Assembly: GCF_009602465.1 (NCBI RefSeq)
Contig: NZ_WBKP01000009.1
Location: 39,203-103,202, forward strand
Origin: Cumulibacter manganitolerans
GTDB lineage: Bacteria > Actinomycetota > Actinomycetes > Mycobacteriales > Antricoccaceae
Direction of reading: 5' to 3'
Length of the DNA: 64,000 nucleotides
Shown here: one piece after another, positions 7,488-61,282 of the stretch
Layout: each line of letters starts with the position of its first letter
How positions within the stretch are numbered: position 1 is the first letter of the stretch
The notes under the pieces: generated by a model
The model's input: only the letters and a program-made list of their open reading frames with translations
What the model was told of the DNA's origin: nothing
Database searches by the model: none
Translations under genes and position numbers: made by a program

Positions 7488-9101
7488 TCAGACCGAGGCG
7501 GCCATCCCGTCGGTCGCCCGGTCGGCGCCGCCGTCCCAGCGGCCGTCATCACCGATGCGGATGGCATGCACCCAGGCGAACTTGAACGCCTGCGGGTACC
7601 GGCGGGTCGGGTAGCCGAGGGCCTGCAGGTCGCGCTCGGTGGACCGCAGGACGCGGTTGGTCAGCTCGATCGTCTCCGACAGGGCGGCCACCCGCGGGGC
7701 GTCGATCGCCTCCTGGGCGCTCATCCCGAAGTCGATCACGTTCAGGATCACCTGCAGGTTGCCGACCGTGATGTAGGTGGCGCCTGGGGCCCCGAGCACC
7801 AGCACCGGGCGATCGTCGCGGAAGACGATCGTCGGCGACAACGCCGAGAAGCGCGCCTTGCCGGGCGCGAGCGATCCCGCCCGACCCGGCCGCGGGTCGA
7901 ACACCGACATCGCGCCGTTGTACATGAACCCCAGCCCCGGCGTGATCACTCCCGACGGCTGGCCCAGCGTGTGGGTCATCGTCACGCAGGTGCCGTGCTC
8001 GTCGACGGCAGCGACCTGGGTGGTGTGCTTGTGCTCGCCGCCGCCGGAGTTGAAGCGCGGCACCTCCGCCTTGACGCCGTCCCTGATCTGCTGGGCCTTG
8101 CCGGCGGCGTACTCCTTCGACGTGAGCTCCTCGACCGGTACCTCGACGAACCGCGGGTCGCCCACCTTGGCATCCTTGTCCGCGGTGGCGATCTTCATCG
8201 CCTCCGCGAGGATCCGGATGTACTCCGGGCTGTTGTGGCCGAGCGACGCCAGATCGAAGTTCTCCAGGATGTTCAGCATCTCGATCAGCTGGATGCCGCC
8301 GCCGGGAGGGTTGTTGGTGGCGATGCGGTGCCCCCGGTACGTCCCCCACAGCGGTGCGTTGTCCTCCGGGGCGCACGTCGCGAGGTCGTCGGGACCGAGC
8401 AGTCCTCCGTTCGCCCGCATGTCCTCCACGATCCGCTCGGCGATCGCGCCGCGGTAGAAGTCGTCGGTGCCGTGCTCGCGGATCCGCCGCAGCGTCGCCG
8501 CCATGTCCGGGTTGCGCAGCACGTCGCCGACGTCGAGGGTGGCGCCGTCGCCTTTCCCGTAGATCGCCCGCGCCGCGGGGTTCTTGGTGACGAGCCCGAT
8601 GTTCGGGTCGCGACCGGCCCCGGCGGGCTCGTTCCAGAACTCCCACATGTGGGGTCGTACGGCGAATCCGTTCTCGCAGTAGGCGATGGCCGGATCGAGA
8701 AGCTCGGTCAGCTGCCGGGTGCCGAACCGCTGCAGGGCGACCTCGAGGGCCGCGAGCGTGCGCGGGGTGCTGATGGCGCCGTACCCCTTCTCGTTGACGC
8801 GGCCCTTCAGGATGAAGCCCCACCCGTCCTCGGCCTCCCGCTCGATGAGGTGCTCCCACATGTCGGGGCGCACCGCCAGCGGGGAGCGGCCGTGGAAGTC
8901 GAGCGTCGTGTGCACACCGGCCTGCGGCTGGTACACGTGGAAGGTCCCGAATCCTGCTATACCGCACATCTGGGGATCGACCGCGGTCTGCGTCAGTGCC
9001 GTGGCTACCGCCGCGTCGACCGCGTTGCCTCCTGCGGCGAGGACGTCGAGGCCCGCTTCCACCGCCTCCGGCTGCGGTGCGCTGATCATGCCGTGCGTCA
9101 T
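7488..9101 (-). CDS. gamma-glutamyltransferase family protein
   Basis: A 537-residue N-terminal-nucleophile hydrolase precursor. These proenzymes self-cleave before a threonine, here most likely in KHTTQVAAVDEHGTCV, giving large and small subunits. The N-terminus AGGNAVDAAVATALTQ and the later SPTIVFRD and VILNVIDFGMSAQEAIDAPRV blocks are typical. The usual GSPGGSR block is LGAPGATYI, so it is a divergent member. No signal peptide is visible, so cytoplasmic action is likely. The ATG at 9101 follows GGAAGGA. It lies 39 bp downstream of a CoA-transferase gene and is probably cotranscribed; the physiological substrate is open. Confidence 0.88.
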   Translation of the reverse strand: MTHGMISAPQPEAVEAGLDVLAAGGNAVDAAVATALTQTAVDPQMCGIAGFGTFHVYQPQAGVHTTLDFHGRSPLAVRPDMWEHLIEREAEDGWGFILKGRVNEKGYGAISTPRTLAALEVALQRFGTRQLTELLDPAIAYCENGFAVRPHMWEFWNEPAGAGRDPNIGLVTKNPAARAIYGKGDGATLDVGDVLRNPDMAATLRRIREHGTDDFYRGAIAERIVEDMRANGGLLGPDDLATCAPEDNAPLWGTYRGHRIATNNPPGGGIQLIEMLNILENFDLASLGHNSPEYIRILAEAMKIATADKDAKVGDPRFVEVPVEELTSKEYAAGKAQQIRDGVKAEVPRFNSGGGEHKHTTQVAAVDEHGTCVTMTHTLGQPSGVITPGLGFMYNGAMSVFDPRPGRAGSLAPGKARFSALSPTIVFRDDRPVLVLGAPGATYITVGNLQVILNVIDFGMSAQEAIDAPRVAALSETIELTNRVLRSTERDLQALGYPTRRYPQAFKFAWVHAIRIGDDGRWDGGADRATDGMAASV

Positions 9102-9140
9102 CGTGGGATTCCTTCCGTTCGCGCGTCGATCGCCAGCGTG

Positions 9141-11711
9141 TCAGACGACTCCCGCGTCGTACAGCGCCTGGACGTCGTCGGGTGACATGCCGAGCAGCTT
9201 CATGAGCACCTCGGCGGTGTCCTCTCCGTAGTTGGGACCGTTGCGGCGCACCGGCCCGCCCACGTGCGGCGGCGTCTCGCTCATCTGCACCGGCAGCTGC
9301 TTGACCGGCCACGTCCCGTTCTCGGTCTGCGGCAGGTCGACCAGCCATTGCCGGTGCTGCAGCTGCGGGTCGTGCTCCACCCGGTCCTCGGCGTTCTGCG
9401 CGACGCCGGCCGGGACGCCCGCGTGCTGCAACGCGTACATCAGCTCGTAGCGGTCCCAGCCCGACGTGGCCTCCTCGAGGAGCGCATCGAGCTCGTCCTG
9501 CCGTTGCAGGCGCCGCGGCAGCGTTGCGAACCGCTCGTCACTCACCCACTCCGGACGCCCGAGGACGGCGGCGGTCGCCGCCCATTGGTGGTCCGTGAAG
9601 CAGGAGATCGCCACCCACCGGTCGACGCCGGCGGCCCGGTAGATGCCGTGCGGCGCGGCCAGCTTGTCCGGTGAACGGTTGCCGCGGCGGGTGAACCGCC
9701 GGCCGTTGACTGTGTAGTCCAGGAACGCGGTGCCGGCCAGGTACATGCCGGTCTCGACCTGTGACGCGTCGATGTGGCAGCCCTCGCCGGTGCGGGCGCG
9801 CCGGTGCAGCCCGGCGAGGATCGCGGTCGCGGCGTTGTACGCGCCGAACCAGTCCAGGTAGCTGTATCCGATCCCGGCCGGTGGCCACGGATCGGGCAGG
9901 CCGGACATCTCGGTGAGCCCGGAGAACGCCTGCGCGGTCGGCCCGAACGCCTTCGCGCGCCCATAGGTCCCGCGATCGCCGAGCCCCGACTGCTGCACGT
10001 AGACGATGTCCGGCTTGAGCTCCTTGAGCCGCTCGTAGCCCAGGCCCATCCGCTGCATGGTGCCCGGCGAGTAGCCCTCGATCACGACGTCCGCCTTGCT
10101 GATCAGCTGCTCGAGGATCGCGCGGCCGCGCGGGTCCTTCAGGTTCAGCGAGATGGCGGACTTGCCGCTGTTGATCTCCATGAAGTTCGCGGACTTGTTG
10201 ACGGTGTCCAGCGGCGGCGGCACCATCGGCAAGCTCGCGGCATCGCGCTCGGCGCGCCCACCGGTCGGGTACACCACCTCGGTGAACCGCATGCCGTCGA
10301 GCCGCGACTCGTGCTCGACCTTGATCACCTCGGCACCCATCGCGGCCAGGAACTTGCCGGCGCCCGCCGACGCGAGCATCCAGCTGAGGTCGACGACCCG
10401 CAGCCCAGCCAGCGCGAACGGCTTGCCGTGCATCGAGTGCTCGGCCGCTTCCTCGCGGGCGGTCGGCTGCGGGCCGGCCCGGCGAACCGACCACGCCTCG
10501 AGGACGGCGCCGTTGTGCTCGCCGACCATCGGCGCGCGGGGTCCGGTCACCCAGTCGGCCTGGTCGCACACCCATCGCGGGCCGATGTCGACGAACGACT
10601 CCCCCAGCTCGGGATACTCGACCGCGGCGAAGGTGCCGCGGATCCTCCAGTGCTCGTCCGACAGGTTCTCCTCCGGGCTGCGCACGGGCGCCCACGAGAG
10701 CCCGCGGTCGAGCATCTCGCGCCAGAAGCCCTTGTCGTAGGTGAAGCGGCGTACGAGACGGTCCATCGCGGCGGTGAGGTACTCCCGCCGCTGGAGCCGG
10801 TAGTCGGCGTCCTGCCACTCGGCGCCGTCGAGCTCGCCCTGCATGCCGTACTGGCGCAACGCGGCGAGGTCGCCCTCCCAGCTCGACGGGAAGTTGCGGA
10901 CGTAGGTCGCGTACGGCAGCAGATAGCGGCCGTCCTTGGTCTGGCTGAGAGCCTTCGGAGTGGGCACCGGGGAGCTGTGCCGGCCGGTCTGACGGTGGTG
11001 CGGCCGGCGCAGGGCCAGCCAGTTGGGCAGGTCGATCTCGGTGTTCACGGCGTTGGCCTGATGGACCGAGCAGGACAGGTACTGGCCGCGGCCGGTGCGC
11101 TCGCGGTGCAGGAGCGCGCCGAGCAGCGCGATCACGCCCTGCTCGCCGGCCACGTGGTAGGCGTGCCACATCTGCGGCGCGATCGGCGGCGTGTCGTAAT
11201 GCCCGTCGGGCTCGGGGTCGTACCCGGAGTTCATCGCCATCCCGCCAAGAGCCAGATGCACCAGATCGCTGCCGAGGAACCCGGCCCAGGGGCCGTCCTC
11301 GCCGAACGGGGTGATGCGCAGGTACACGAGCCCTGGGTTCGCCCGCGACAGCGCGTCGTGGCCCAGCTCGCGGTCGGCGAGGTAGCTGCCCGGACGCGCA
11401 TCGATCACGACGTCCGCATGCTCGGCGAGGCGGGCGAACGCCTGCCGACCCGCCGGCGTGTCGAGATCGACGCTGACCGAGCGCTTGGCGACGTTGTAGT
11501 GCCAGAAGTAGAGGCTGCGCTCGGGGTGCGGCTCGTCGCGGTAGAAGGGGCCGTACCGGCGGGTGTGCTCACCGCCGAGCGGCTCGATCTTCACGACGTC
11601 GGCCCCGAGGCCGGCCAGCAGCTTGCCGGCGTACTCGCCCGCCTCGTCGGCGAGCTCGAGGACCCGCAGGCCGCCCAGATAGGTGTCCGTCGCCGGCCGC
11701 GCCTCGCTCAT
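9141..11711 (-). CDS. tandem-domain CoA-transferase, family III (CaiB/BaiF)
   Basis: An 856-residue protein made of two family III CoA-transferase domains in one chain. Domain 1 (~10-400) opens with GLRVLELADEAGEYAGKLLAGL and GADVVKIEPLGG. Domain 2 (~430-856) opens with LAGLRVVDLSWMLASAGAGK and GAEVIKVEHESR and carries the VIEGYSPGTMQRMGLGY block. Family III enzymes usually form interlaced dimers of ~400-residue chains and move CoA between acids through an aspartyl-CoA intermediate; a fused pair probably folds as a pseudo-dimer. The acid is unknown. The ATG at 11711 follows GGGAGAGG. First gene of a likely two-gene operon with the GGT-like enzyme. Confidence 0.88.
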   Translation of the reverse strand: MSEARPATDTYLGGLRVLELADEAGEYAGKLLAGLGADVVKIEPLGGEHTRRYGPFYRDEPHPERSLYFWHYNVAKRSVSVDLDTPAGRQAFARLAEHADVVIDARPGSYLADRELGHDALSRANPGLVYLRITPFGEDGPWAGFLGSDLVHLALGGMAMNSGYDPEPDGHYDTPPIAPQMWHAYHVAGEQGVIALLGALLHRERTGRGQYLSCSVHQANAVNTEIDLPNWLALRRPHHRQTGRHSSPVPTPKALSQTKDGRYLLPYATYVRNFPSSWEGDLAALRQYGMQGELDGAEWQDADYRLQRREYLTAAMDRLVRRFTYDKGFWREMLDRGLSWAPVRSPEENLSDEHWRIRGTFAAVEYPELGESFVDIGPRWVCDQADWVTGPRAPMVGEHNGAVLEAWSVRRAGPQPTAREEAAEHSMHGKPFALAGLRVVDLSWMLASAGAGKFLAAMGAEVIKVEHESRLDGMRFTEVVYPTGGRAERDAASLPMVPPPLDTVNKSANFMEINSGKSAISLNLKDPRGRAILEQLISKADVVIEGYSPGTMQRMGLGYERLKELKPDIVYVQQSGLGDRGTYGRAKAFGPTAQAFSGLTEMSGLPDPWPPAGIGYSYLDWFGAYNAATAILAGLHRRARTGEGCHIDASQVETGMYLAGTAFLDYTVNGRRFTRRGNRSPDKLAAPHGIYRAAGVDRWVAISCFTDHQWAATAAVLGRPEWVSDERFATLPRRLQRQDELDALLEEATSGWDRYELMYALQHAGVPAGVAQNAEDRVEHDPQLQHRQWLVDLPQTENGTWPVKQLPVQMSETPPHVGGPVRRNGPNYGEDTAEVLMKLLGMSPDDVQALYDAGVV

Positions 11712-11807
11712 CTGCCTGCCTCTCCCGATCTCGTCCCTGCCCCGAGCCGACTACGCCCCGGGGAAGATGTCAACGTCATCCCACGGACGTGATGCCGCCC
11801 ACAAGGG

Positions 11808-11836
11808 TTGGCGATCCGCGAATCGTCGTTTACTGT
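11808..11836 (+). promoter_or_regulatory. promoter of the sulfur operon
   Basis: TTGGCG (11808-11813), a 17-bp spacer and TACTGT (11831-11836) form a plausible housekeeping promoter. Transcription would begin near 11843, which is the first base of the riboswitch P1 stem. The agreement between promoter and RNA start supports both calls. Confidence 0.6.
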
Positions 11837-11843
11837 TCAACGA

Positions 11844-11962
11844 GGTCACGAGAGTCGCCGTCAAGCCCTGGCTCGGCGACCAGCAACCCCCGTCTCGCGG
11901 AGGGGTGCTCCAGGTGAGGACCGGGCCGGATCGCACGAGCGATCGGCAAGCGCGAGATCGCC
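11844..11962 (+). promoter_or_regulatory. SAM-IV riboswitch
   Basis: The RNA matches my recollection of the actinobacterial SAM-IV consensus block by block. P1 is GGTC (11844-11847) with the GACC that ends at 11922. P2 is GTCGCC (from 11854) with GGCGAC around the conserved GTCAAGCCCTGGCTC. The CAGCAACCCC junction follows, then a P3 hairpin of ACCCC with GGGGT, then GTGCTCCAGGTGAGGACC. The downstream pseudoknot/P5 part ends with the conserved CGGCAAGCGCGAG (11944-11956). SAM binding should shut off the operon by hiding translation or stopping transcription. It lies directly upstream of a Cys-type leader peptide and the monooxygenase/ABC operon, marking that operon as sulfur-regulated. Confidence 0.87.
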
Positions 11963-11984
11963 GATGCGGAAGGAGAAGCCAGTC

Positions 11985-12101
11985 ATGGACGCCACGTCTG
12001 GTATCCACGCCGCACACTCCCGGCCGCTGGCCGGTCACGAAGCCGCGTGGCGGCTGTACGTCGACCTGGCACTCGTCGCCAGCATGCGCTGTCCGCGCTA
12101 A
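11985..12101 (+). CDS. 38-residue leader peptide (actinobacterial Cys-leader type)
   Basis: The short frame starts at an ATG with a good AAGGAGA site (11970-11976) and ends YVDLALVASMRCPR. That resembles the 'putative leader peptide' family (xVDLxRVASAxCxR) found ahead of sulfur-assimilation operons in actinomycetes. In mycobacteria similar cysteine-containing short ORFs act as cysteine-responsive attenuators. The single Cys codon, TGT at 12090-12092, lies three codons before the stop, next to alternative RNA helices. It is placed between a SAM-IV riboswitch and the first structural gene. The role in attenuation is inferred. Confidence 0.8.
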   Translation: MDATSGIHAAHSRPLAGHEAAWRLYVDLALVASMRCPR

Positions 12102-12193
12102 GAGCGCGTTCCAGCCCGACGTTCGCTTCACACATCACCTGAGGGACACCTCCGTCCCGTCGCAGCCGCGGCACCGATTCCGCTTGCGCGCTC
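12094..12193 (+). promoter_or_regulatory. candidate attenuator with mutually exclusive helices
   Basis: The 3' end of the leader ORF forms a hairpin: CGCGCT (12094-12099) with AGCGCG (12103-12108), enclosing part of the stop codon. The same right arm, extended as GAGCGCG (12102-12108), can instead pair with CGCGCTC at 12187-12193. A ribosome stalled at the Cys codon (12090-12092) would mask the first arm and favour the second pairing. Complementarities are visible; the switching is inferred, and no clear terminator was identified between here and 12250. Confidence 0.4.
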
Positions 12194-12249
12194 GACACGC
12201 CTTCCTTCTGCGGCGGTGATGTGCCCTTTCACCACGAGGTGCCTCCACC

Positions 12250-13482
12250 ATGTCCACCAACCCCCCAACTCTTTCGCGCCCTTCCGAGAACATCGGGCTA
12301 TCCGTCGCCCTCGACGGCGCTGGCTGGCATCCGGCCGCCTGGCGCGAGCCGGCGGCACGGCCCGCGGACCTGTTCAGCACCGCCTACTGGGCCGACCTCG
12401 CGGCCGAGGCGGAGCGCGGTCTGCTCGACTTCGTCACCATCGAGGACTCGCTCGGTCTGCAGTCCGATCACTTCGGCGGCCCACCCGACTCCCGAACCGA
12501 CCAGGTTCGCGGCCGTCTCGACGCCGCCCTGATCGCCGCCGCACTCGGGCCGGTCACGTCCTCGATCGGCCTGGTGCCGACGGTCACGACCACCCACACG
12601 GAACCCTTCCACGTCTCGAAGTCACTCGCCACGCTGGATTTCGTCAGCCACGGCCGTGCCGGCTGGCGCGTCCAAGTCTCCAGCAAAGCACACGAAGCTG
12701 AGCATTTCGGACGGCGCCAGATCCCCGCTATAGGTCGGAACTGGGAGTCTGACGATGCGTCCCGTCGCGTGGTGCGCGAGCTGTTCGACGAGGCGGCCGA
12801 CGTGATCGAGGCGGTTCGCCGGCTGTGGGACAGCTGGGAGGACGACGCGGAGATCCGCGACATCGCCACCGGCCGCTTCATCGACCGCGGCAAGCTGCAC
12901 TACATCGACTTCGAAGGGCCGGCCTTCAGCGTCAAGGGGCCGTCGATCACCCCTCGACCGCCACAAGGCCAGCCGGTCGTCACCGCGCTCGCCCACGCCC
13001 AGATCCCCTACGAGCTGGCGGCCCGCGGCGCCGACCTCGTGTTCGTCACGCCCCAGACCGTCGACGAGGTGCCCGGGATCATCGAGCAGGTCCGGTCGGC
13101 CGAGGCGTCCGTCGCGCGCACGGGCACACCGCTGCTGATCAACGCCGATCTGCTCGTGGTGCTGGACCACACCGAGCAGGCGGCACGCGACCGCCGCCAC
13201 CGTCTCGACGACCTGGCCGGCTCGGCGCTGCAGTCCGACGCCGCGATCATCGCCACCACGCCCGAGCGGCTGGCCGGCCTGCTGATCGAGTGGGCCGACG
13301 CCGGCCTAGACGGCTTCCGCCTACGCCCGGCCGCGCTGCCCACCGACCTCGTCGCGATCACCCGCGGCGTCGTCCCGCACCTGCAACGAGCCGGCGCCTT
13401 CCGCAGCGGCTACTCCACCACGTCCCTCCGCGAGCATCTCGGGCTACCCGTAGCCGTCAACCGCTACGCCGCAATCGCCTAA
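12250..13482 (+). CDS. LLM-class flavin-dependent monooxygenase (sulfur operon, first gene)
   Basis: A 410-residue luciferase-fold protein. Family features are YWADLAAEAERGLLDFVTIEDSLGL near residues 43-65, LDFVSHGRAGWRVQVSS and AHAQIPYELAARGADLVFVTP. It resembles the two-component FMNH2-dependent monooxygenases that cleave C-S or C-N bonds (NtaA/SnaA/DszA relatives). The ATG at 12250 is preceded by GAGGTG. It is the first structural gene after the SAM-IV riboswitch and leader peptide, so it is probably expressed under sulfur limitation. A flavin reductase partner is not encoded in the operon. Confidence 0.88.
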   Translation: MSTNPPTLSRPSENIGLSVALDGAGWHPAAWREPAARPADLFSTAYWADLAAEAERGLLDFVTIEDSLGLQSDHFGGPPDSRTDQVRGRLDAALIAAALGPVTSSIGLVPTVTTTHTEPFHVSKSLATLDFVSHGRAGWRVQVSSKAHEAEHFGRRQIPAIGRNWESDDASRRVVRELFDEAADVIEAVRRLWDSWEDDAEIRDIATGRFIDRGKLHYIDFEGPAFSVKGPSITPRPPQGQPVVTALAHAQIPYELAARGADLVFVTPQTVDEVPGIIEQVRSAEASVARTGTPLLINADLLVVLDHTEQAARDRRHRLDDLAGSALQSDAAIIATTPERLAGLLIEWADAGLDGFRLRPAALPTDLVAITRGVVPHLQRAGAFRSGYSTTSLREHLGLPVAVNRYAAIA

Positions 13483-13499
13483 CGGAAAGAAAAGTAGAC

Positions 13500-14903
13500 A
13501 TGAGCAACCAAACGACTCGTAAGCAGATCATCCTCGGCGCGCATTTCCCCGGCGTCAACAACACCACCGTCTGGCGTAACCCGGCTTCGGGCAGCCAGAT
13601 CGACTTCGCCTCCTTCAGGCACTTCGCGCAGACAGCCGAACGCGGCAAGCTCGACTTCCTGTTCCTCGCGGAGGGGCTCCGGCTGCGTGAGCAGCGCGGC
13701 CTGATCCATGACCTCGACGTCGTTGGTCGGCCCGACACGTTCGCCGTGCTGGCGGCGCTGTCGTCGGTTACCACGCAGCTCGGGCTCGCCGGCACCATCA
13801 ACGCCACCTTCAACGAGCCGTACGAGGTTGCCCGCCAGTTCGCCACGCTGGACCAGCTTTCCGGCGGCCGGGCCGCCTGGAACGTCGTCACGAGCTCGGA
13901 TGCCTTCACCGGCGAGAACTTCCGGCGCGGCGGCTTCCTGCCGCACGCGCAGCGCTATACCCGCGCACGGGAGCACGTCCAGACCGCCCGGGAGCTGTGG
14001 GACTCCTGGCGCAGTGACGCGATCGTCGCCGACAAGGAGGCCGGGCAGTTCCTCGCGGACGGCACGGCCGGGGCGTTCGCGCATGACGGCGAGCACTTCA
14101 AGATCAGCGGCCGGTTCAACGTCCCGCGCAGCCCGCAAGGGCATCCGGTCGTCTTCCAGGCCGGCGACTCGAGCGACGGAAGGGAGTTCGCGGCACAGTC
14201 CGCCGACGCGATCTTCACCCGCCACGGCACCCTGGAGGAGGGCGTCGCGTTCACTCGTGACGTCAAGGCTCGCGCGCGCCGCTACGGGCGCGACCCCGAC
14301 GACCTGAAGGTGCTGCCCGGAGTGGGCTTCATCCTCGGCGATACCGATCAGGAGGCCGCCGAGATCGCCCGTGAGGTGCGCTTCGAGCAGGTGAGCCCGC
14401 AGACCGCGATCCTGCTGCTCGAGCAGGTCTGGAACCGCGACCTGTCGTCGTACGACCCGGACGGGCCGCTGCCCGCGGAGGACCCGGACGTCGAGTCGAT
14501 CTCGATCATCCAGGGCCGCGCCCGGCAGGTCGACGGCATCCTGGAGACCGCGCGTCGCTACCGCCGGATCGCCGAGGAGAAGAACCTCAGCATCCGCGAG
14601 CTCATCGTCGAGGTGACCGGCCGTGGGCTGTTCGTCGGCAGCGCCCGGACGGTCGCCGACGAGCTCGACCGCTTCGTTCTCGCCGGCGCGAGCGACGGCT
14701 TCATCCTGGTGCCGCACATCGTCCCGTTCGGCCTCGACGGCTTCGTCGACCAGGTCGTGCCGCTGCTGCAGGAGCGCGGCGCCCTGCGAGAGGACTACGT
14801 CCCCGGTGCGACCTTGCGCGAGAACCTCGCCCTACCCCCTGCCGCACCCGCAGCACACTGGGCCGCTCGGGTCCGCGACAACGCCGAGGAGGTGGCCTCG
14901 TGA
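13500..14903 (+). CDS. NtaA/SnaA/DszA-type flavin-dependent monooxygenase
   Basis: A 467-residue LLM protein starting MSNQTTRKQIILGAHFPGVN. The blocks FASFRHFAQTAERGKLDFLF, ATLDQLSGGRAAWNVVTSSD (shared by nitrilotriacetate, pristinamycin and dibenzothiophene-sulfone monooxygenases), FNVPRSPQGHPVVFQAGDSS and VGSARTVADELDRFV identify the family. It would use reduced FMN from a separate reductase to open a heteroatom-carbon bond. The start is ATG 13500 after GGAAAG; the long upstream frame overlaps the preceding gene. It overlaps the ABC binding-protein gene by 4 bp (GTGA), implying coupled translation and a shared substrate. Confidence 0.9.
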   Translation: MSNQTTRKQIILGAHFPGVNNTTVWRNPASGSQIDFASFRHFAQTAERGKLDFLFLAEGLRLREQRGLIHDLDVVGRPDTFAVLAALSSVTTQLGLAGTINATFNEPYEVARQFATLDQLSGGRAAWNVVTSSDAFTGENFRRGGFLPHAQRYTRAREHVQTARELWDSWRSDAIVADKEAGQFLADGTAGAFAHDGEHFKISGRFNVPRSPQGHPVVFQAGDSSDGREFAAQSADAIFTRHGTLEEGVAFTRDVKARARRYGRDPDDLKVLPGVGFILGDTDQEAAEIAREVRFEQVSPQTAILLLEQVWNRDLSSYDPDGPLPAEDPDVESISIIQGRARQVDGILETARRYRRIAEEKNLSIRELIVEVTGRGLFVGSARTVADELDRFVLAGASDGFILVPHIVPFGLDGFVDQVVPLLQERGALREDYVPGATLRENLALPPAAPAAHWAARVRDNAEEVAS

Positions 14904-16522
14904 GGGCCAGCACGCATCGTTCATCAGGCCGCCGGCTCATCCCCGTCGCGCTGCTCGCGACCGCGAGCCTGGCCCTGGCCGCCTGCGGCGGCGGCGCCGG
15001 AGCGCAGGCGCCGGCGGGATCGCCCACCAGCGGCGGAAAAGCGACCATCGCGGTGGCCTCCGACGCCGGCTGCGTGGATCCGCAGCAGGTGGCCAGCAAC
15101 GACACCATCTGGTCGACGCGCCAGATCGTCGACTCGCTCACCGACCAGAACCCCAAGACCGGTGAGATCGTTCCTTGGCTCGCGGAGTCGTGGGACATCA
15201 GCCCCGACTCCACGGCGTTCACCTTCCACCTCCGTAAGGGCGCGACATTCTCCGACGGCTCGGCGGTGGACGCCGCGGCGGTGAAGGTCAATCTCGACCG
15301 CGCTGTGACCCTGGGGGCGCGCGCCGGCCTGATCCGCGGTTACCTCAGCGGCTACGCGGCCAGCACCGTGGTCGATCCGCAGACCGTCACGGTGTCCTTC
15401 AAGCAACCCAACGCGCAGTTCCTCCAGGCGACATCCACGCACAGCCTGGGCCTGCTGTCGCCGGCCAGCGTCCCGCTCAGCGACGACGAACGGTGCAAGG
15501 GCGTCATCGGATCCGGCCCGTTCGTGCTCGGCTCCTACACGCCGAACCAGTCGGTCGTGCTCACCAAGAGAGCCGGCTACAGCTGGGGATCCTCGCTGTG
15601 GAAGCACAAGGGCGCGGCCTACCTCGATCAGGTGACCTTCCAGGTCGTCCCCGAGTCGGGGGTGCGAGCCGGCAGTCTCCAGTCCGGCGAGTCCGACGTG
15701 ATCAGCAGCATCGGCCCGCAGGACGAGGCGGCCTTCAAGGGCACCAACGTGGTCCTGCAGGCCCGGTCCAACCCCGGAGTCGTGTTCAACCTCGGCTTCA
15801 ACCACCAGCGCCCGCTCGGCGCCGACCCGGTGGTGCGCAAGGCGCTGTCGCTCGCCCTCGATCGCCAGCAGATCGTGGACACGGTCTACACGTCGCAGAC
15901 GAAGCCGGCGACCAGCATCCTGGCCTCGACGACACCGATGTACGCCGAGCAGAAGAAGGCGCTGGGCAGCGATCCGAAGGAGGCGGGCAAGCTCCTGAAG
16001 GACGCAGGGTGGGTCCGCGGCTCCGACGGCATCTACGCCAAGGACGGCCGCAAGCTGTCGCTGACCGTCAGCTGGTCGGCGGTGATCGGGACCAACAAGC
16101 CGGCCCTGGAGCTGATCCAGCAGCAGGCGGCCGCGTCCGGCATCGACCTGCAACTCAAGGAGCTCCAGGTGGCCGAGTCGGCGTCGGTGCTCGCGTCGGG
16201 AGACTTCGACATCTACTGGAGCAACCTCACCCGAGCGGATCCCGACATCCTGCGTTCGAGCTACTCGACCGCGCTGGCCAACAACTACCGCCTACCGGCG
16301 TCCGACCTCGACGCGGCGCTGGCCGCCCAGGCGGCGGACTCGGACCCGGTGAAGCGCGCCGGGGCGGCGGCGCAGGCGCAGCAGCTGATCGTCGACAGCT
16401 ACGACGTGGTCCCCGTCGTCGAGCTGACCACGGTTCTGGCGCACAGCCCGAAGATCCACGACGTCACGTACGACGCGTCGTCGCGCATCCAGCTCTTCGA
16501 CACCTGGACCACGGGCGGCTGA
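14900..16522 (+). CDS. ABC transporter substrate-binding lipoprotein (family 5, peptide/nickel type)
   Basis: A 540-residue solute-binding protein. The N-terminus is a lipoprotein signal: RRLIP, a hydrophobic run and the lipobox LALAACG with the lipidated Cys near residue 29. The mature part has the family-5 blocks WLAESWDISPDSTAFTFHLR, GATFSDGSAVDAAAVKVNL, GSGPFVLGSYTPNQSVVLTK and VRKALSLALDRQQIVDTVY. Family 5 captures oligopeptides, nickel, glutathione and other polar solutes. In this operon the ligand is probably a sulfur-containing one. GTG start at 14900, overlapping the previous stop; first of four importer genes. Confidence 0.92.
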   Translation: MRASTHRSSGRRLIPVALLATASLALAACGGGAGAQAPAGSPTSGGKATIAVASDAGCVDPQQVASNDTIWSTRQIVDSLTDQNPKTGEIVPWLAESWDISPDSTAFTFHLRKGATFSDGSAVDAAAVKVNLDRAVTLGARAGLIRGYLSGYAASTVVDPQTVTVSFKQPNAQFLQATSTHSLGLLSPASVPLSDDERCKGVIGSGPFVLGSYTPNQSVVLTKRAGYSWGSSLWKHKGAAYLDQVTFQVVPESGVRAGSLQSGESDVISSIGPQDEAAFKGTNVVLQARSNPGVVFNLGFNHQRPLGADPVVRKALSLALDRQQIVDTVYTSQTKPATSILASTTPMYAEQKKALGSDPKEAGKLLKDAGWVRGSDGIYAKDGRKLSLTVSWSAVIGTNKPALELIQQQAAASGIDLQLKELQVAESASVLASGDFDIYWSNLTRADPDILRSSYSTALANNYRLPASDLDAALAAQAADSDPVKRAGAAAQAQQLIVDSYDVVPVVELTTVLAHSPKIHDVTYDASSRIQLFDTWTTGG

Positions 16523-16529
16523 CGCAGCG

Positions 16530-17489
16530 ATGACCAGATATCTGCTCCGCCGCACCGGGCTGGCGCTGGGCGTGCTGTGGGCGGCGTTCACCGCGTCGTT
16601 CGTCGTGCTCTACCTGATCCCGGGCGACGCGGTCGAGGCGATGGTCTCGGCGCAGGACGTGCCCCCGTCGGCTGCCGAGCTCGCCCGGCTACGGGCGACG
16701 TACGGCGTCGACGAGCCACTGATCGTGCAGTACGGCGAACGGCTCTGGGCGGCGCTGCACGGCGACTTCGGCGACTCCATCCAGACCGGGCGCTCCGTGA
16801 CCTCCTCGATCCTGGACGCGCTGCCGAGCACCGCACTGCTGGCCGGCACGGCACTCGTGCTCGCGATCGTCGGCGGCGGGTCGCTCGCCGTCGTCGCGAC
16901 CGGGACCGAGTCCCGGTGGGCGCGCCAGGTGCTCCTGGCGCTCCCGCCGCTGGCGGTGTCGCTGCCGACGTTCTGGGTCGGTCTGGTGCTGATCCAGGTG
17001 TTCAGCTTCCAGCTCGGCCTTTTCCCGTCGATCGGCGGCACCGGCCTGAGCGGCCTCGTGCTGCCCGCGGTGACGCTGGCACTGCCTATCGGCGCCGTCA
17101 TCGCCCAGATCCTGGCGAAGTCGCTGACCTCGGCGCTCGACGAGCCGTACGTCACCACGGCCCGCGCGAAGGGCGTGGGCCGGACCGGCATCCACCTCCG
17201 GCACGCCCTGCGCAACGCAGCGTTGCCCGCACTCACGGCGATCGGGCTGCTCGTCGGACAGCTGCTGGCCGGATCGGTGGTGGTCGAGACGGTGTTCGCG
17301 CGCGTCGGCGTCGGTCGGCTGACCGTCCAGGGCGTGACCGCCCAGGACATCCCACTCGTCCAGGGAATCGTGGTGTTCGGCGCCCTGGTGTTCGTCACCG
17401 CGAACCTCCTGGTCGATCTGGTCTACCCCGTGCTCGACCCCCGCATCGTGAGCACACCGCCGATCTCCCGACGAAAGGTACGCACATGA
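16530..17489 (+). CDS. ABC transporter permease (DppB type)
   Basis: A 319-residue inner-membrane permease. MTRYLLRRTGLALGVLWAAF is the typical first helix, followed by GDSIQTGRSV and the EAA-loop-like PYVTTARAKGVGRTGIHLRHALRN block that contacts the ATPase. VETVFARVGVGRLTVQGVTAQD is a conserved C-terminal segment. It begins 7 bp after the binding-protein stop and overlaps the second permease by 4 bp. It forms half of the membrane channel of the importer. Confidence 0.92.
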   Translation: MTRYLLRRTGLALGVLWAAFTASFVVLYLIPGDAVEAMVSAQDVPPSAAELARLRATYGVDEPLIVQYGERLWAALHGDFGDSIQTGRSVTSSILDALPSTALLAGTALVLAIVGGGSLAVVATGTESRWARQVLLALPPLAVSLPTFWVGLVLIQVFSFQLGLFPSIGGTGLSGLVLPAVTLALPIGAVIAQILAKSLTSALDEPYVTTARAKGVGRTGIHLRHALRNAALPALTAIGLLVGQLLAGSVVVETVFARVGVGRLTVQGVTAQDIPLVQGIVVFGALVFVTANLLVDLVYPVLDPRIVSTPPISRRKVRT

Positions 17490-18415
17490 CCGAGATCGCC
17501 ACCGCTACCCTGCTTCGGGACTCTGACCTCCTGCCCGCCGACCCCGCGCCCGCGGCCGCGCCTGCGCGAGAGCCTGCCGTCCGCGGCGGCCGGCTGCCGC
17601 GATGGTTGCGGTTCGGCCTCACGCGGCCGGGTCTGATCATCAGCGTCGCCTTCCTCGCGCTGGTGCTCACGGCCTGCTTCGCCCCGAACCTGCTGGCCTC
17701 GGGCAACCCGCTGACCGGCCGACCGGCCGACCACCTGCGGGCACCGGACCTGGTGCACCTGTTCGGCACGGACCATCTGGGACGTGACGTGTTCACCCGC
17801 GTGGTGCACGGAACCGCTCTGTCGTTGCGTTCTGCGCTGGTGGCCGTCACGATCGCGCTCGTGGTCGGTGGCCTGCTGGGGCTCGTCGCGGGGACCCTCG
17901 GACGCTGGATCGACGAGGCGATCATGCGTTTCGTCGACGTACTGCTGGCCATCCCGGCCCTGCTGCTTTCCCTGGCGCTCGTTACCGCGCTCGGCTACGG
18001 GACCGTCAACGTGGCCATCGCGGTCGCGATCGGCTCGGTCGCGACGTTCGCACGAGTCGCCCGGTCCGAGACCTTGCGAGTCTCGCGCGCCGCGTACGTC
18101 GAGGCGGCGCGCTCGGCCGGCTCACGTCCGTGGACGACGCTCTGGCGGCACATCCTGCCCAACGCGATCGGCCCGATCCTGGCGCTCGCGGTGCTCGAGT
18201 TCGGGGTGGCGATCCTCGCCGTCGCCTCCCTGAGCTTTCTCGGGTACGGCGCTCCGCCGCCCACTCCGGAATGGGGGGCGATGGTCGCCGAGGGACGGAA
18301 CTACCTGGCGACCTCCTGGTGGCTGACGACGCTGCCCGGGCTCACCGTCGCTGCGACGGTGCTGGCGGTCAACCGCGTCTCCCGGGCGCTCGACGGAGAA
18401 TGGAGACGAGCATGA
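17486..18415 (+). CDS. ABC transporter permease (DppC type)
   Basis: A 309-residue partner permease. After a poorly conserved, Ala/Pro-rich N-terminus come LTRPGLIISVAFLALVLTAC, the DppC-type DLVHLFGTDHLGRDVFTRVV loop, the EAA-like YVEAARSAGSRPWTTLWRHI block and PPTPEWGAMVAEGRNYL. The ATG at 17486 overlaps the upstream stop (ATGA) and is preceded by GAAAGG. It pairs with the DppB-type permease and overlaps the ATPase gene downstream. Confidence 0.92.
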   Translation: MTEIATATLLRDSDLLPADPAPAAAPAREPAVRGGRLPRWLRFGLTRPGLIISVAFLALVLTACFAPNLLASGNPLTGRPADHLRAPDLVHLFGTDHLGRDVFTRVVHGTALSLRSALVAVTIALVVGGLLGLVAGTLGRWIDEAIMRFVDVLLAIPALLLSLALVTALGYGTVNVAIAVAIGSVATFARVARSETLRVSRAAYVEAARSAGSRPWTTLWRHILPNAIGPILALAVLEFGVAILAVASLSFLGYGAPPPTPEWGAMVAEGRNYLATSWWLTTLPGLTVAATVLAVNRVSRALDGEWRRA

Positions 18416-20079
18416 CCACCCCCGACACGGCCCCGCTCCTCGCGGTCCGGGACCTACGCGTCAGCTACCGGACCAGAGGGCGCGAGGTCCCCGCGCTGCG
18501 CGGCGTCGACCTGCAGCTCTCGCGCGGCGAGGTCGTCGCGCTGGTCGGCGAATCCGGATCGGGCAAGAGCACGCTCGCGCACTCGATCATCGGGCTGCTG
18601 GCACCCAACGCGTCCATCGGCTCAGGCCAGGTGCTGTGGCGCGGCACGGATCTCGCCCAGGCATCGACTCGCACCTACCGCCGGCTGCGGGGGCGCGAGA
18701 TCGGCCTCGTCCCGCAGGACCCGACCGTCTCCTTGAACCCTGTGCAGCGCGTCGGAGCGCAGGTGGCGGAGGTCTTGAAGGTGCACGGACTCGCTGATCG
18801 TCGAGGCGCCGCGGCGGCAGCCGTGGCGGCCCTGGAGAAGGCCGGCCTGCCGGACCCGGAGCTGCGGGCGCAGCAGTATCCGCACGAGCTCTCCGGGGGC
18901 ATGCGGCAACGGGTGCTGATCGCGATCGCCATCGCGGCAGATCCGCAGCTGCTCATCGCGGATGAGCCGACGAGCGCGCTCGACGTCACGGTGCAGCGGC
19001 GCATTCTCGACCACCTCGATGGCTTGCGCACCGAACGCGAGCTGGCGGTCCTGCTGGTGACTCACGATCTCGGCGTCGCGGCCGATCGCGCGCAGCGGAT
19101 CGTCGTGATGTCCGAAGGGCGCATCGTCGAGGACGGCGCGGCCGACGCCGTGCTGCACGACCCGCGGCACGAGTACACGCAGCGCCTGCTGCGGGCAGCC
19201 CCCGGCCTGGCGCTCGGCGGCGACCGGAACCGCAGCCGGGTCGACCGGCCTCCGGCGGTACGCGCGCTGGCGAGCGCCGAGCAGCCGGCGCTGGTCCGGG
19301 CGGCCAACCTGGTGAAGGAGTTCCGGCTACCGCAGGGCGCGACGGTGCGCGCCGTCGACGATGTCAGCTTCGCGATCCCCACGGGGCAGACCCTCGCGCT
19401 GGTCGGCGAGTCCGGCTCGGGCAAGTCCACGACCGCGCGCCTGGTCCTCGGCCTCACGCCACCGACGTCCGGCACAGTGACGGTCGGCGGCGCCGAGATG
19501 AGCGGGCTGCGCGGCAGCGCCTGGCGAGAGGCGCGCCGGCATGCGCAGCTGGTCTACCAGAACCCGTTCGCCTCGCTCGATCCCCGGTGGCGCGCGGAGG
19601 ACATCGTCGGCGAACCACTCCGGGTGTTCAAGGTCGGCACCCGGGCCGCACGCCACCGGCGGGTGGCGGCACTGATCGACCGGGTCGCGCTGCCGGCCTC
19701 CACGCTGGATCGCAAAGCCGCCGAGCTCTCCGGGGGCCAGCGGCAGCGCCTCGCCATCGCCCGCGCGCTGGCGCTGTCGCCGCAGCTGGTCGTCCTCGAC
19801 GAGCCGGTGTCGGCACTGGATGTCTCGGTGCAGGCGCAGGTGCTCGAACTGCTCGCCGAGCTGCAGTGCGACCAGCAGCTGACCTACCTGTTCATCACCC
19901 ACGACCTCGCGGTCGTCGGCCAGATCGCCCACCAGGCAGCCGTCATGCGAGCCGGCTCGATCGTCGAGTCCGGTCCCGTCGACCAGCTGTTCACGCGACC
20001 GCGACACGACTACACCCGCGACCTGCTCGACTCCATCGCAGGTCGCCACCTGTCCCACGCGCCGGCGGCGCGTGCCTGA
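18412..20079 (+). CDS. fused double ABC ATPase (DppD-DppF type)
   Basis: A 555-residue protein with two complete ATPase domains that are separate proteins in most importers of this class. Each has a GESGSGKST Walker A loop (about residues 45 and 330). The signature motifs are LSGGMRQR and LSGGQRQR, and the Walker B motifs LLIADEPTSALD and LVVLDEPVSALD. Each also ends with the oligopeptide-ATPase C-terminal extension (DPRHEYTQRLL and RPRHDYTRDLL). It energises uptake through the two permeases. The ATG at 18412 overlaps the previous stop; an alternative ATG lies 12 bp upstream. Confidence 0.93.
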   Translation: MTTPDTAPLLAVRDLRVSYRTRGREVPALRGVDLQLSRGEVVALVGESGSGKSTLAHSIIGLLAPNASIGSGQVLWRGTDLAQASTRTYRRLRGREIGLVPQDPTVSLNPVQRVGAQVAEVLKVHGLADRRGAAAAAVAALEKAGLPDPELRAQQYPHELSGGMRQRVLIAIAIAADPQLLIADEPTSALDVTVQRRILDHLDGLRTERELAVLLVTHDLGVAADRAQRIVVMSEGRIVEDGAADAVLHDPRHEYTQRLLRAAPGLALGGDRNRSRVDRPPAVRALASAEQPALVRAANLVKEFRLPQGATVRAVDDVSFAIPTGQTLALVGESGSGKSTTARLVLGLTPPTSGTVTVGGAEMSGLRGSAWREARRHAQLVYQNPFASLDPRWRAEDIVGEPLRVFKVGTRAARHRRVAALIDRVALPASTLDRKAAELSGGQRQRLAIARALALSPQLVVLDEPVSALDVSVQAQVLELLAELQCDQQLTYLFITHDLAVVGQIAHQAAVMRAGSIVESGPVDQLFTRPRHDYTRDLLDSIAGRHLSHAPAARA

Positions 20080-20093
20080 CCGAAAGGCCCCAC

Positions 20094-21224
20094 ATGCCCA
20101 CCACCCCGCTGTCCGTCCTCGACCTCGCCCCGGTCTCCGACGGAGCCGAACCGGCGCAGGCGCTGCGCAACACGATCGACCTCGCCCGGCATGCCGAACG
20201 CCTCGGCTACCACCGGTACTGGGTTGCCGAGCACCACTTCACCCCGGGCGTCGCGAGCTCGTCACCGGCCGTCCTGACCGCGCTCATCGCCTCCGCCACG
20301 AGCCGGATCCGAGTGGGATCGGGAGCGGTGCTCGCCGGCAACACGACCGCTGCGGCCGTGCTCGAGCAGTTCGCGACCATCGACGCCGTCCACCCCGGTC
20401 GCATCGACCTCGGGCTGGGCCGCACGGGCCAGCGCCGCGCGGAGGCGCTGGCCACGGTCGCGGCCGGTGCGCCCCCGAAGCCGGCGCGCCAGGAACGGGT
20501 CGTCGACGGGCTGCTGCTGCCGGCGCCGTTCGACGTGACCCGCCAGCTGACTTCCTCGCGAGCCCGCACCGCCGACCGGCTGCTTCGCCAGGACGGCGCC
20601 CAGTCGCCGCCGTTCGCCGAGCAGGTCGCCGACATCGAGGCGTTCATCGCGGGCAGCTACCGCACGGAGGACGGCGAGCCGGTGGAGCTGGTGCCCGGCC
20701 GAGGCGCCACGCTGGAGCTGTGGCTGCTCGGCAGCAGCGGCGGCGAGAGCGCGCAGCTGGCCGGCGCCCGGGGGCTGCCGTTCGCGGCGAACTACCACGT
20801 CGCCCCGTCGGCGGTCCTGGAGGCGGTGCAGGCGTACCGCGACGCGTTCGTGCCGTCGTCGCGGCTCGACCGGCCGTACGTCGTGGTATCTGCGGACGTG
20901 GTCGTCGCCGAGTCGGACGAGCGGGCCCGTGAGCTCGCCTCGCCGTACGCCGCGTGGGTGCGCAGCATCCGCAACGGCACCGGCGCAATCCCCTACCCGT
21001 CGCCGCAGCAGGCCGCCGCTCAGGCGTGGTCGGACGAGGATCGCGCGCTGGTCGACGACCGGGTGCGCACGCAGTTCGTCGGAAGCCCGCAGCGCGTGGC
21101 CGAGCAGCTACGCACCCTTCAGGCCGCCACCGGTGCCGACGAGCTGCTCGTCACCTCGGTCACCCACGACCACCGTGACCGCGTGCGATCGCACGAGCTG
21201 CTCGCCACCGCTTGGGCGGCATGA
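20094..21224 (+). CDS. MsnO8-family LLM oxidoreductase
   Basis: A 376-residue single-component-like luciferase-fold protein. LSVLDLAPVSDGAEPAQALR, YHRYWVAEHHFTPGVASSSP, GNTTAAAVLEQFATIDAVHP and GRIDLGLGRTGQ are hallmarks of the MsnO8/YhbW group. Unlike the two enzymes at the start of the operon, this group is not tied to one reaction. It follows the ATPase by 14 bp with a GAAAGG site before ATG 20094. Its place between the importer and DUF1684 suggests a second oxidation step on the imported compound. Confidence 0.88.
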   Translation: MPTTPLSVLDLAPVSDGAEPAQALRNTIDLARHAERLGYHRYWVAEHHFTPGVASSSPAVLTALIASATSRIRVGSGAVLAGNTTAAAVLEQFATIDAVHPGRIDLGLGRTGQRRAEALATVAAGAPPKPARQERVVDGLLLPAPFDVTRQLTSSRARTADRLLRQDGAQSPPFAEQVADIEAFIAGSYRTEDGEPVELVPGRGATLELWLLGSSGGESAQLAGARGLPFAANYHVAPSAVLEAVQAYRDAFVPSSRLDRPYVVVSADVVVAESDERARELASPYAAWVRSIRNGTGAIPYPSPQQAAAQAWSDEDRALVDDRVRTQFVGSPQRVAEQLRTLQAATGADELLVTSVTHDHRDRVRSHELLATAWAA

Positions 21225-21267: not shown

Positions 21268-22113
21268 ATGACGACGACGAAGCAGTTCACCGAGGAATGG
21301 GCCCGGTGGCACGAGGAGCACGAGCGCAACCGGGCGCACGAGCACGGCTTCCTGGCGATCACCGGGCTGTACTGGCTCAGCACCGACCCGACCACGCTGC
21401 CCGATGCGCCCGGGTCTTGGACCACCGGCGACGACGGACCGGTCGTCGAGCTCGCCGACCGGGAGTGGCTGACCGTCGAGGGACGGCGCGTGTCCGGCCG
21501 TCACGAGTTCGGGCCGATTCCCGAGCGCGGCGGCATCAACGCCGAGTTCGACGGCGGAGTCATCGAGGTCGCCCGGCGCGGCGGCCGCGATCTGCTGCGT
21601 CCGCGGCGCGGCGACAACCCGTTCCTGAAGGCCTACCGGGGGAACCCGACGTTCGCGCCGGATCCGGCCTGGCGGCTGCCGGCGCGATATCTGCCGTGGG
21701 AGACGCCGCGGGCCGTCACCGTAGGCGCCGCCGTCGACGACCTGCAGCACGTCTACGACTCCCCCGGGCAGGTGGAGTTCGAGGTGGGCGGCGCGACGCT
21801 GCGCCTTACGACGTTCCCCGGCCATGAGCCCGGTTCCCTGTTCGCGCTTTTCACCGACCAGACCAGCGGGATAACGACGTACGCCGCCAACCGGAGCGTC
21901 GCCATCCCGGCGCCGGACTCCGAGGGCCGGACCGTCGTCGACTTCAACCGCGCCGTGAACCTGCCGTGCGCGCACACCGACTTCGCGACGTGCCCCCTGC
22001 CGCCGGCGCAGAACCGACTGCCGGTCGCGGTGGAGGCCGGCGAGCGCCACCCGACGTCCCGGCTGACAGGCACGGTCACCGACACCGCGATTCTGTTACC
22101 GGCGACCCGCTAA
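21268..22113 (+). CDS. DUF1684 domain protein
   Basis: A 281-residue soluble protein recognised as DUF1684 from FLAITGLYWLSTDPTTL near the N-terminus and the C-terminal DFNRAVNLPCAHTDFATCPLPPAQNRLPVAVEAGE. Family members occur across bacteria; I know of no firmly established biochemical role. The conserved Asp/Asn/Cys/His cluster near residue 235-255 could be a metal or active site, which is speculation. The ATG at 21268 is preceded by GAAGGGA. It is the last gene of the SAM-IV-controlled operon, so a role in handling a sulfur compound is plausible. Confidence 0.8.
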   Translation: MTTTKQFTEEWARWHEEHERNRAHEHGFLAITGLYWLSTDPTTLPDAPGSWTTGDDGPVVELADREWLTVEGRRVSGRHEFGPIPERGGINAEFDGGVIEVARRGGRDLLRPRRGDNPFLKAYRGNPTFAPDPAWRLPARYLPWETPRAVTVGAAVDDLQHVYDSPGQVEFEVGGATLRLTTFPGHEPGSLFALFTDQTSGITTYAANRSVAIPAPDSEGRTVVDFNRAVNLPCAHTDFATCPLPPAQNRLPVAVEAGERHPTSRLTGTVTDTAILLPATR

Positions 22114-23047: not shown

Positions 23048-23156
23048 GGTCGTCTAGCGAGCCGGAGCGCCAGCGGAGGCGACGTCGAGACGTTCTGCGG
23101 TGGACTGTCGGCTTGCGTCGTCTCGACGTCGCTCGTTCCTCGCTCGCTCGACGACC
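23048..23156. repeat. 109-bp palindromic element, family A copy 1
   Basis: Terminal arms GGTCGTCTAGCGAG and CTCGCTCGACGACC, and inner arms CGACGTCGAGACG and CGTCTCGACGTCG, form a long imperfect hairpin. The same element appears twice at 59706-59816 and 59929-60039. It lies 73 bp upstream of the nuclease start, and its right end merges into the 63-bp tandem array. Confidence 0.85.
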
Positions 23157-23521
23157 GTTGGGATGCGTTCGACGACCCGTTGGGCCGGCAGTCGCTCGTT
23201 CCTCGCTCGCTCGACGACCGTTGGGATGCGTTCGACGACCCGTTGGGCCGGCAGTCGCTCGTTCCTCGCTCGCTCGACGACCGTTGGGGTGCGTTCAACG
23301 ACCCGTTGGGCCGGCAGTCGCTCGTTCCTCGCTCGCTCGACGACCGTTGGGATGCGTTCGACGACCCGTTGGGCCGGCAGTCGCTCGTTCCTCGCTCGCT
23401 CGACGACCGTTGGGATGCGTTCGACGACCCGTTGGGCCGGCAGTCGCTCGTTCCTCGCTCGCTCGACGACCGTTGGGGTGCGTTCAACGACCCGTTGGGC
23501 CGGCAGTCGCTCGTGTCTCGC
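23131..23521. repeat. 63-bp tandem array in an A-A-B-A-A-B pattern
   Basis: Six complete 63-bp units start at 23131, 23194, 23257, 23320, 23383 and 23446, with a partial seventh at 23509. Units 1, 2, 4 and 5 read GGGATGCGTTCGACG where units 3 and 6 read GGGGTGCGTTCAACG. The array is therefore two copies of a 189-bp three-unit block. Each unit contains the right arm of the family A palindrome. All six frames stay largely open because 63 is a multiple of 3; the reading frames look spurious. It fills the gap between the nuclease and cupin genes. Confidence 0.95.
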
Positions 23522-61186: not shown

Positions 61187-61282
61187 GGAAGCGTATGGGT
61201 TCCTGGTGGGCCCCCCGGTCTTCAAAACCGGTGAGGCCGAGTAGCTCGGCCTGGCGGGTTCGATTCCCGTCCGCTTCCGCCA
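61187..61282 (+). tRNA. selC: selenocysteine tRNA, anticodon UCA
   Basis: A 96-base tRNA with encoded CCA. The acceptor GGAAGCG pairs with CGCTTCC before GCCA. The anticodon arm is CCGGT / ACCGG with the loop CTTCAAA, giving anticodon TCA. The long variable arm is GGCCGAG / CTCGGCC with a TAG loop, and the T loop is GGTTCGATTCC. The long variable arm, UCA anticodon and extended D arm are specific to tRNA-Sec, which is charged with Ser and converted by SelA. It sits between selD and selA. Confidence 0.97.

Follow-up and report, generated by a model that had tools for sequence, protein, structure and literature searches.

A SAM-IV riboswitch and a cysteine leader ORF in series may form a two-input gate ahead of a probable sulfur-scavenging operon in Cumulibacter manganitolerans

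What does a SAM-IV riboswitch control when a short cysteine-containing reading frame lies between it and the operon downstream? This question is raised by a stretch of 64,000 nucleotides from Cumulibacter manganitolerans (hereafter the window; all features are on its plus strand unless stated otherwise). The SAM-IV riboswitch was reportedly described by Weinberg in 2008. In the window, the Rfam covariance model for this family (RF00634) matches positions 11844-11958 over its full length (model positions 1-116 of 116) with a score of 98.5 bits (E 8.2e-17) against a gathering score of 38, which bears out the SAM-IV assignment made in a preliminary description of the locus; the conserved sequence blocks quoted there are likewise found in the window. 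Both pseudoknots pair perfectly, CCTGG at 11867-11871 with CCAGG at 11910-11914 for PK-1 and CTCGCG at 11894-11899 with CGCGAG at 11951-11956 for PK-2, and both are among the SAM-IV features described in PMC6890682. Furthermore, comparison with the other elements in an alignment of 26 reveals paired changes in both pseudoknots: the commonest form of PK-1 is CCCGG/CCGGG, and the U-A pair of PK-2 is a C-G pair in most elements. The aptamer is predicted to bind SAM. The same genome carries two further SAM-IV elements, one of which precedes a gene for an enzyme of cysteine or methionine metabolism.

Transcription probably starts at the first base of the aptamer. A candidate -10 box, TACTGT (11831-11836), ends 7 nt before 11844 and is preceded at a distance of 17 nt by a candidate -35 box, TTGGCG (11808-11813). 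Neither the -35 box nor any other promoter within 11600-12400 was listed by the consensus scanner. A locus from a congener (L193, genome G002) has TACTCT at the same place as the -10 box. Moreover, 133 SAM-IV matches start with the first position of the model and are preceded by 26 nt of sequence, and 94 of these have a TANNNT motif whose first base lies at -14 to -12. In Corynebacterium glutamicum, the observed transcript start lies 2 nt before the Rfam start of a SAM-IV element, according to PMC3890552. The earlier placement of the RNA start on the first riboswitch base is thus plausible as a prediction. Its feature was, however, drawn from 11808 to 11962; the riboswitch within it stands, but the proposed promoter boxes together with the Rfam match set its start at 11844, 11808 being the first base of the proposed -35 box.

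Downstream, eight genes probably form one operon. They encode two LLM monooxygenases (12250-13482, best match to the NtaA/DmoA family TIGR03860 just under the cut-off; 13479-14903, same family and above the cut-off, start codon provisional), an ABC substrate-binding protein of the SBP_bac_5 type (14900-16522, best NCBIfam match TIGR04028, under its cut-off), two ABC permeases (16530-17489 and 17486-18415), an ABC ATPase with two ABC_tran stretches (18412-20079, start codon provisional), a third LLM enzyme of 376 aa (20094-21224; PF00296, 144.5 bits) and a DUF1684 protein of 281 aa (21268-22113), the probable last gene. These family matches agree with the three LLM genes and the ABC transporter previously noted behind the riboswitch. 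The operon is probably devoted to sulfur scavenging. Divergently from it, 7488-11711 of the minus strand holds a gamma-glutamyltransferase gene and an ORF of 856 aa, stretches of which match CoA-transferases of the CaiB type. Elsewhere in the window are a tandem repeat (23128-23521; 63-bp unit, 6.3 copies, 97% match) that is open in more than one frame, and a selenocysteine tRNA (61187-61278, plus strand, 82.8 bits).

The preliminary description had the riboswitch govern this operon and tied the operon to sulfur metabolism. While the sequence supports the tie to sulfur, the operon does not follow the riboswitch immediately: a leader ORF of 38 codons that had been overlooked lies between the aptamer and the first LLM gene. 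This ORF (11985-12101) is preceded by the Shine-Dalgarno sequence AAGGAG (11970-11975), encodes MDATSGIHAAHSRPLAGHEAAWRLYVDLALVASMRCPR and ends in ...LYVDLALVASMRCPR*. An HMM built from 20 leaders, the window's own excluded and one of them (L108) itself located behind a SAM-IV element, scores the peptide with an E value of 6.6e-6. The peptide carries a D-x8-C motif, YVDLALVASMRC, in which the cysteine lies exactly nine residues past the motif Asp; it is encoded by a UGU codon (TGT, 12090-12092) close to the stop codon and upstream of the sulfur-type operon. The motif Arg three residues after the Asp is missing, and the NCBIfam model NF042934 (curated score 27 bits) gives no match to the peptide even at E 10 with HMMER filters on. 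The same model, run on four other leaders from LLM-orthologue or similar loci, passes three (40.4, 36.3 and 30.4 bits) and fails one (18.7 bits).

In the congener, the -10 box, the SAM-IV element, the leader and the LLM gene are all kept. The two leaders differ at 14 nucleotides, 8 of them in third positions (dN 0.075, dS 0.33). A perfect hairpin, CGCGCT-AAG-AGCGCG (12094-12108), overlaps the leader stop codon, is also found in L193 and is part of the minimum free energy (MFE) fold. By these sequence criteria, 11985-12101 is a divergent member of the actinobacterial Cys leader peptides, at which ribosomes would be expected to stall under cysteine limitation, making the leader a putative cysteine sensor.

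The arrangement recurs well beyond this genus. SAM-IV elements were found in 60 of 101 genomes, a set made up of this organism and 100 relatives from its order, and 118 further elements were fetched from among the matches listed. Searching with nhmmer gave 172 SAM-IV matches, or 171 once the window's duplicate of one locus (L002) was dropped. Among the matches listed, the leader ORF lies behind 62 of these 171 elements at an HMM E value of 0.002 or less and 109 lack it by the same test, in a set that is not a random sample, 20 elements coming from loci picked for their LLM gene. For the order sample alone, the leader follows 49 of 151 listed elements, in 30 of the 58 genomes examined. The same HMM matched none of 490 reverse-strand ORFs and none of 156 upstream short ORFs, and we reject a chance ORF on this basis. 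Named carriers of the pair are ten Streptomyces loci, one Blastococcus locus (L073) and one Nakamurella locus (L108). We also looked from the side of the LLM gene, in the best 80 of 586 orthologue loci, one of which is titled Melainabacteria. A short Cys ORF lies upstream in 24 of these 80, and 23 of the 80 have the leader with no SAM-IV element upstream; one locus (L058) has both, and two (L072 and L076) have a SAM-IV element with no recognised leader.

Our chief reason for taking the leader to be the target of the riboswitch is its position relative to the aptamer. The median distance from aptamer to leader start is 38.5 nt (quartiles 33-43), as against 43 nt (quartiles 35-50) from aptamer to gene in SAM-IV elements without a leader, a comparison based on the 67 of 109 such genes starting within 100 nt and on leader and gene starts chosen by heuristics that favour Shine-Dalgarno sequences, with some gene calls doubtful (for example at L157 and L202). 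The leader start therefore occupies the place that is often held by the gene elsewhere. In our reading, the leader peptide is probably what the riboswitch gates, and the operon probably responds to cysteine in addition to SAM.

The genes behind the two kinds of element also differ. One leader-bearing locus (L142) gave no gene, and Pfam families were thus scanned for 61 of the 62; the first genes include 12 LLM, 8 SBP_bac_3, 4 GNAT and 2 cysteine dioxygenase genes, with NCBIfam adding 21 ABC permeases (TIGR01726) and one SsuE. Without a leader (n = 109), Aminotran_5 (45) and Cys_Met_Meta_PP (32) prevail over LLM (11) and NlpA (4). At least three of the 32 Cys_Met_Meta_PP members, 31 of which were rescanned, also match Aminotran_5, so that the two families together account for 73 or 74 of the 109 first genes without a leader and for none of the 61 with one. 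The split is clear (Fisher p about 6e-21 or less), even though the p value comes out too low because the genomes are related. Since 11 of the 109 leaderless elements also precede LLM genes, the leader is not obligatory.

The cysteine codon of the leader is nearly invariant. In 55 of the 62 leaders a Cys lies exactly nine residues past the motif Asp; TGT encodes 54 of these 55 residues, a count conditional on the D-x8-C spacing and excluding the 7 leaders that lack it as called. Among the 24 leaders of LLM orthologues the codon is TGT in all 24, with L058 common to both sets. The background is far lower: TGT makes up 37 of 237 Cys codons in the first genes and 1 of 20 in the window's genes, UGU being a rare codon. 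Such a bias points to selection on the codon and not only on the residue, and suggests that the speed of decoding matters at this position. Outside the codon, we compared the 48 leaders that a stricter pattern anchors on the motif Asp, which is itself invariant by construction because it serves as the anchor: 47 of them have Arg at +3 and 43 have Ser at +6. This pattern left out 14 of the 62, the window's included. Three leaders, all among the 7 without the spacing, have no Cys. All three are from Streptomyces (L042, L056 and, behind the minus-strand SAM-IV element, L058) and end in ...LTRRLHIDLLRVSSAY*, possibly leaders with another signal.

By which route could the leader reach the operon? 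Between its stop codon and the first operon gene lies a spacer of 148 nt (12102-12249) that is rich in C (0.41) and poor in G (0.25), and is a possible Rho-loading region. The excess of C over G is 0.167 in spacers with a leader; long UTRs that lack one have 0.108, and coding sequence 0.071. No intrinsic terminator was listed in the spacer or between aptamer and leader; the one terminator-like site listed anywhere within 11600-12400 precedes the riboswitch. Within the spacer, the arms CACATCACC (12131-12139) and GGTGATGTG (12215-12223) are both kept in L193 while much between them diverges, and the stretch 12131-12223 pairs in the MFE fold.

Several structural routes were modelled and none of them was supported. 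Placing a stalled ribosome on the leader left the operon ribosome-binding site closed in the fold model (mean change 0.003, shuffled 0.014, at 23 hand-picked loci of the 62), which does not favour its release by stalling. The predicted access of the leader Shine-Dalgarno sequence is independent of aptamer occupancy (occupied versus free 0.46 and 0.47 in the window, 0.46 and 0.43 over 57 leaders), with no useful change that would speak for its masking by the riboswitch. Switch stems competing with P5 did not exceed in length those of shuffled sequences (5.29 versus 5.39 pairs over 112 elements), and RNAalifold found no conserved fold for the Cys codon and its surroundings (42 nt; alifold energy 0.0). 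For Streptomyces clavuligerus, PMC8269248 reports a premature transcription unit that carries a predicted SAM-IV element. Taken together, the negative fold tests, the C-rich and G-poor spacers and this premature transcript lead us to prefer, loosely, a Rho-type coupling.

We consider it somewhat probable that the SAM-IV element and the Cys leader form a serial AND-type gate controlling the eight-gene operon. Two observations could instead be read as two independent switches in a row, the riboswitch acting on transcription or mRNA fate alone and the leader acting separately with no gating: the folds revealed no masking of the Shine-Dalgarno sequence, and the leader occurs without SAM-IV at 23 of the 80 LLM orthologues. 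The premature S. clavuligerus unit would also suit a riboswitch of this kind. Independence would nevertheless leave unexplained why leader starts lie at the distance at which many SAM-IV elements have the gene directly behind them, and in the window no intrinsic terminator was listed on the way from the aptamer to the leader; we regard this alternative as possible but unlikely.

The same material bears on what the short ORF senses. Its conserved core, R-R-H-V-D-L-x-R-V-x-S-A-L-C, could belong to a nascent-chain arrest peptide that responds to something other than Cys-tRNA. The conservation of Arg and Ser away from the Cys codon would fit such a peptide, as would the Streptomyces leaders without Cys and the finding that 31 of 62 leaders have just one Cys among the final 14 residues, a low number if codons alone were counted. 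A signal carried by the peptide only would, however, have no need of the near-universal UGU, and the first genes resemble those for sulfur or amino-acid uptake, so that we hold an arrest peptide to be improbable. That the SAM-IV riboswitch works alone, the ORF being a chance or relic frame, is very improbable: the window peptide is indeed divergent and goes unrecognised by NCBIfam, but it is conserved in L193, and the pair recurs among the listed SAM-IV matches with zero matches in the controls.

For the serial gate, which we prefer, we infer the direction of the SAM and cysteine effects and the route of the signal to the operon as follows. At high SAM the riboswitch would deny ribosomes access to the leader ORF; the C-rich RNA that follows the untranslated leader would stay bare, and either transcription would end early, most likely via Rho, or the operon would remain untranslated. 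At low SAM the leader would be translated. With ample cysteine the ribosome would then pass the UGU codon and the operon would be off, whereas with scarce Cys-tRNA it would pause at UGU near the leader end and the operon would be expressed. Under this hypothesis, the operon is made only when SAM and cysteine are both low.

Each of the two parts has known relatives. The element resembles known SAM-IV riboswitches (RF00634) in its full-length aptamer, both pseudoknots, the predicted transcript 5′ end and the sulfur-type genes, but these lie upstream of the gene itself, as listed for example for the cysteine desulfurase gene of S. lividans in PMC8079986, while in the window a leader-peptide ORF stands in between. 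The leader resembles the actinobacterial Cys leader peptides of NCBIfam (NF042934 cis_reg_atten, NF042936 and NF042933), which likewise are short ORFs ahead of sulfur genes, have Cys codons close to their end and show no obvious terminator, and differs in being divergent and located behind a riboswitch. Such actinobacterial leader peptides were reportedly the subject of work by Canestrari in 2020. Mycobacterial Cys leaders are leaderless and polycysteine, in contrast to the one UGU codon of the window's leader, and act by translational attenuation, in which a stalled ribosome frees the ribosome-binding site of the next gene; this release is what the fold model of the hand-picked loci did not reproduce. 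Leader ORFs of cys genes also appear in PMC1262725, and PMC13236596 cites Canestrari 2020 for translation attenuation of Cys genes. A further likeness is to the mgtA 5′ leader with its MgtL uORF, where RNA structure acts together with translation of the leader ORF to influence Rho termination (PMC11552253); mgtA has a single signal (Mg), whereas the window joins an aptamer of a SAM-binding family to a Cys leader. We found no report of SAM-IV and a Cys leader in series in the open-licence literature; within that literature both components are already known and their serial combination is new.

If the proposal is true, this locus would be a natural two-metabolite logic gate put together from a riboswitch and a leader peptide in tandem, and the UGU codon offers a clean codon-level prediction. 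Roughly one in three of the sampled SAM-IV elements has the pair. Our judgement is evenly balanced on the wider claim: that Actinobacteria have a widespread and so far undescribed two-input RNA gate, in which SAM-IV acts directly on a leader ORF that senses cysteine and whose UGU codon is near-invariant, rather than on an enzyme gene, SAM decides whether the cysteine supply is read, and the gate marks sulfur-uptake operons while methionine-synthesis genes have the riboswitch alone. The leader ORF would then count as a target of SAM-IV, and would open a route to sulfur-scavenging operons of unknown substrate in Actinobacteria.
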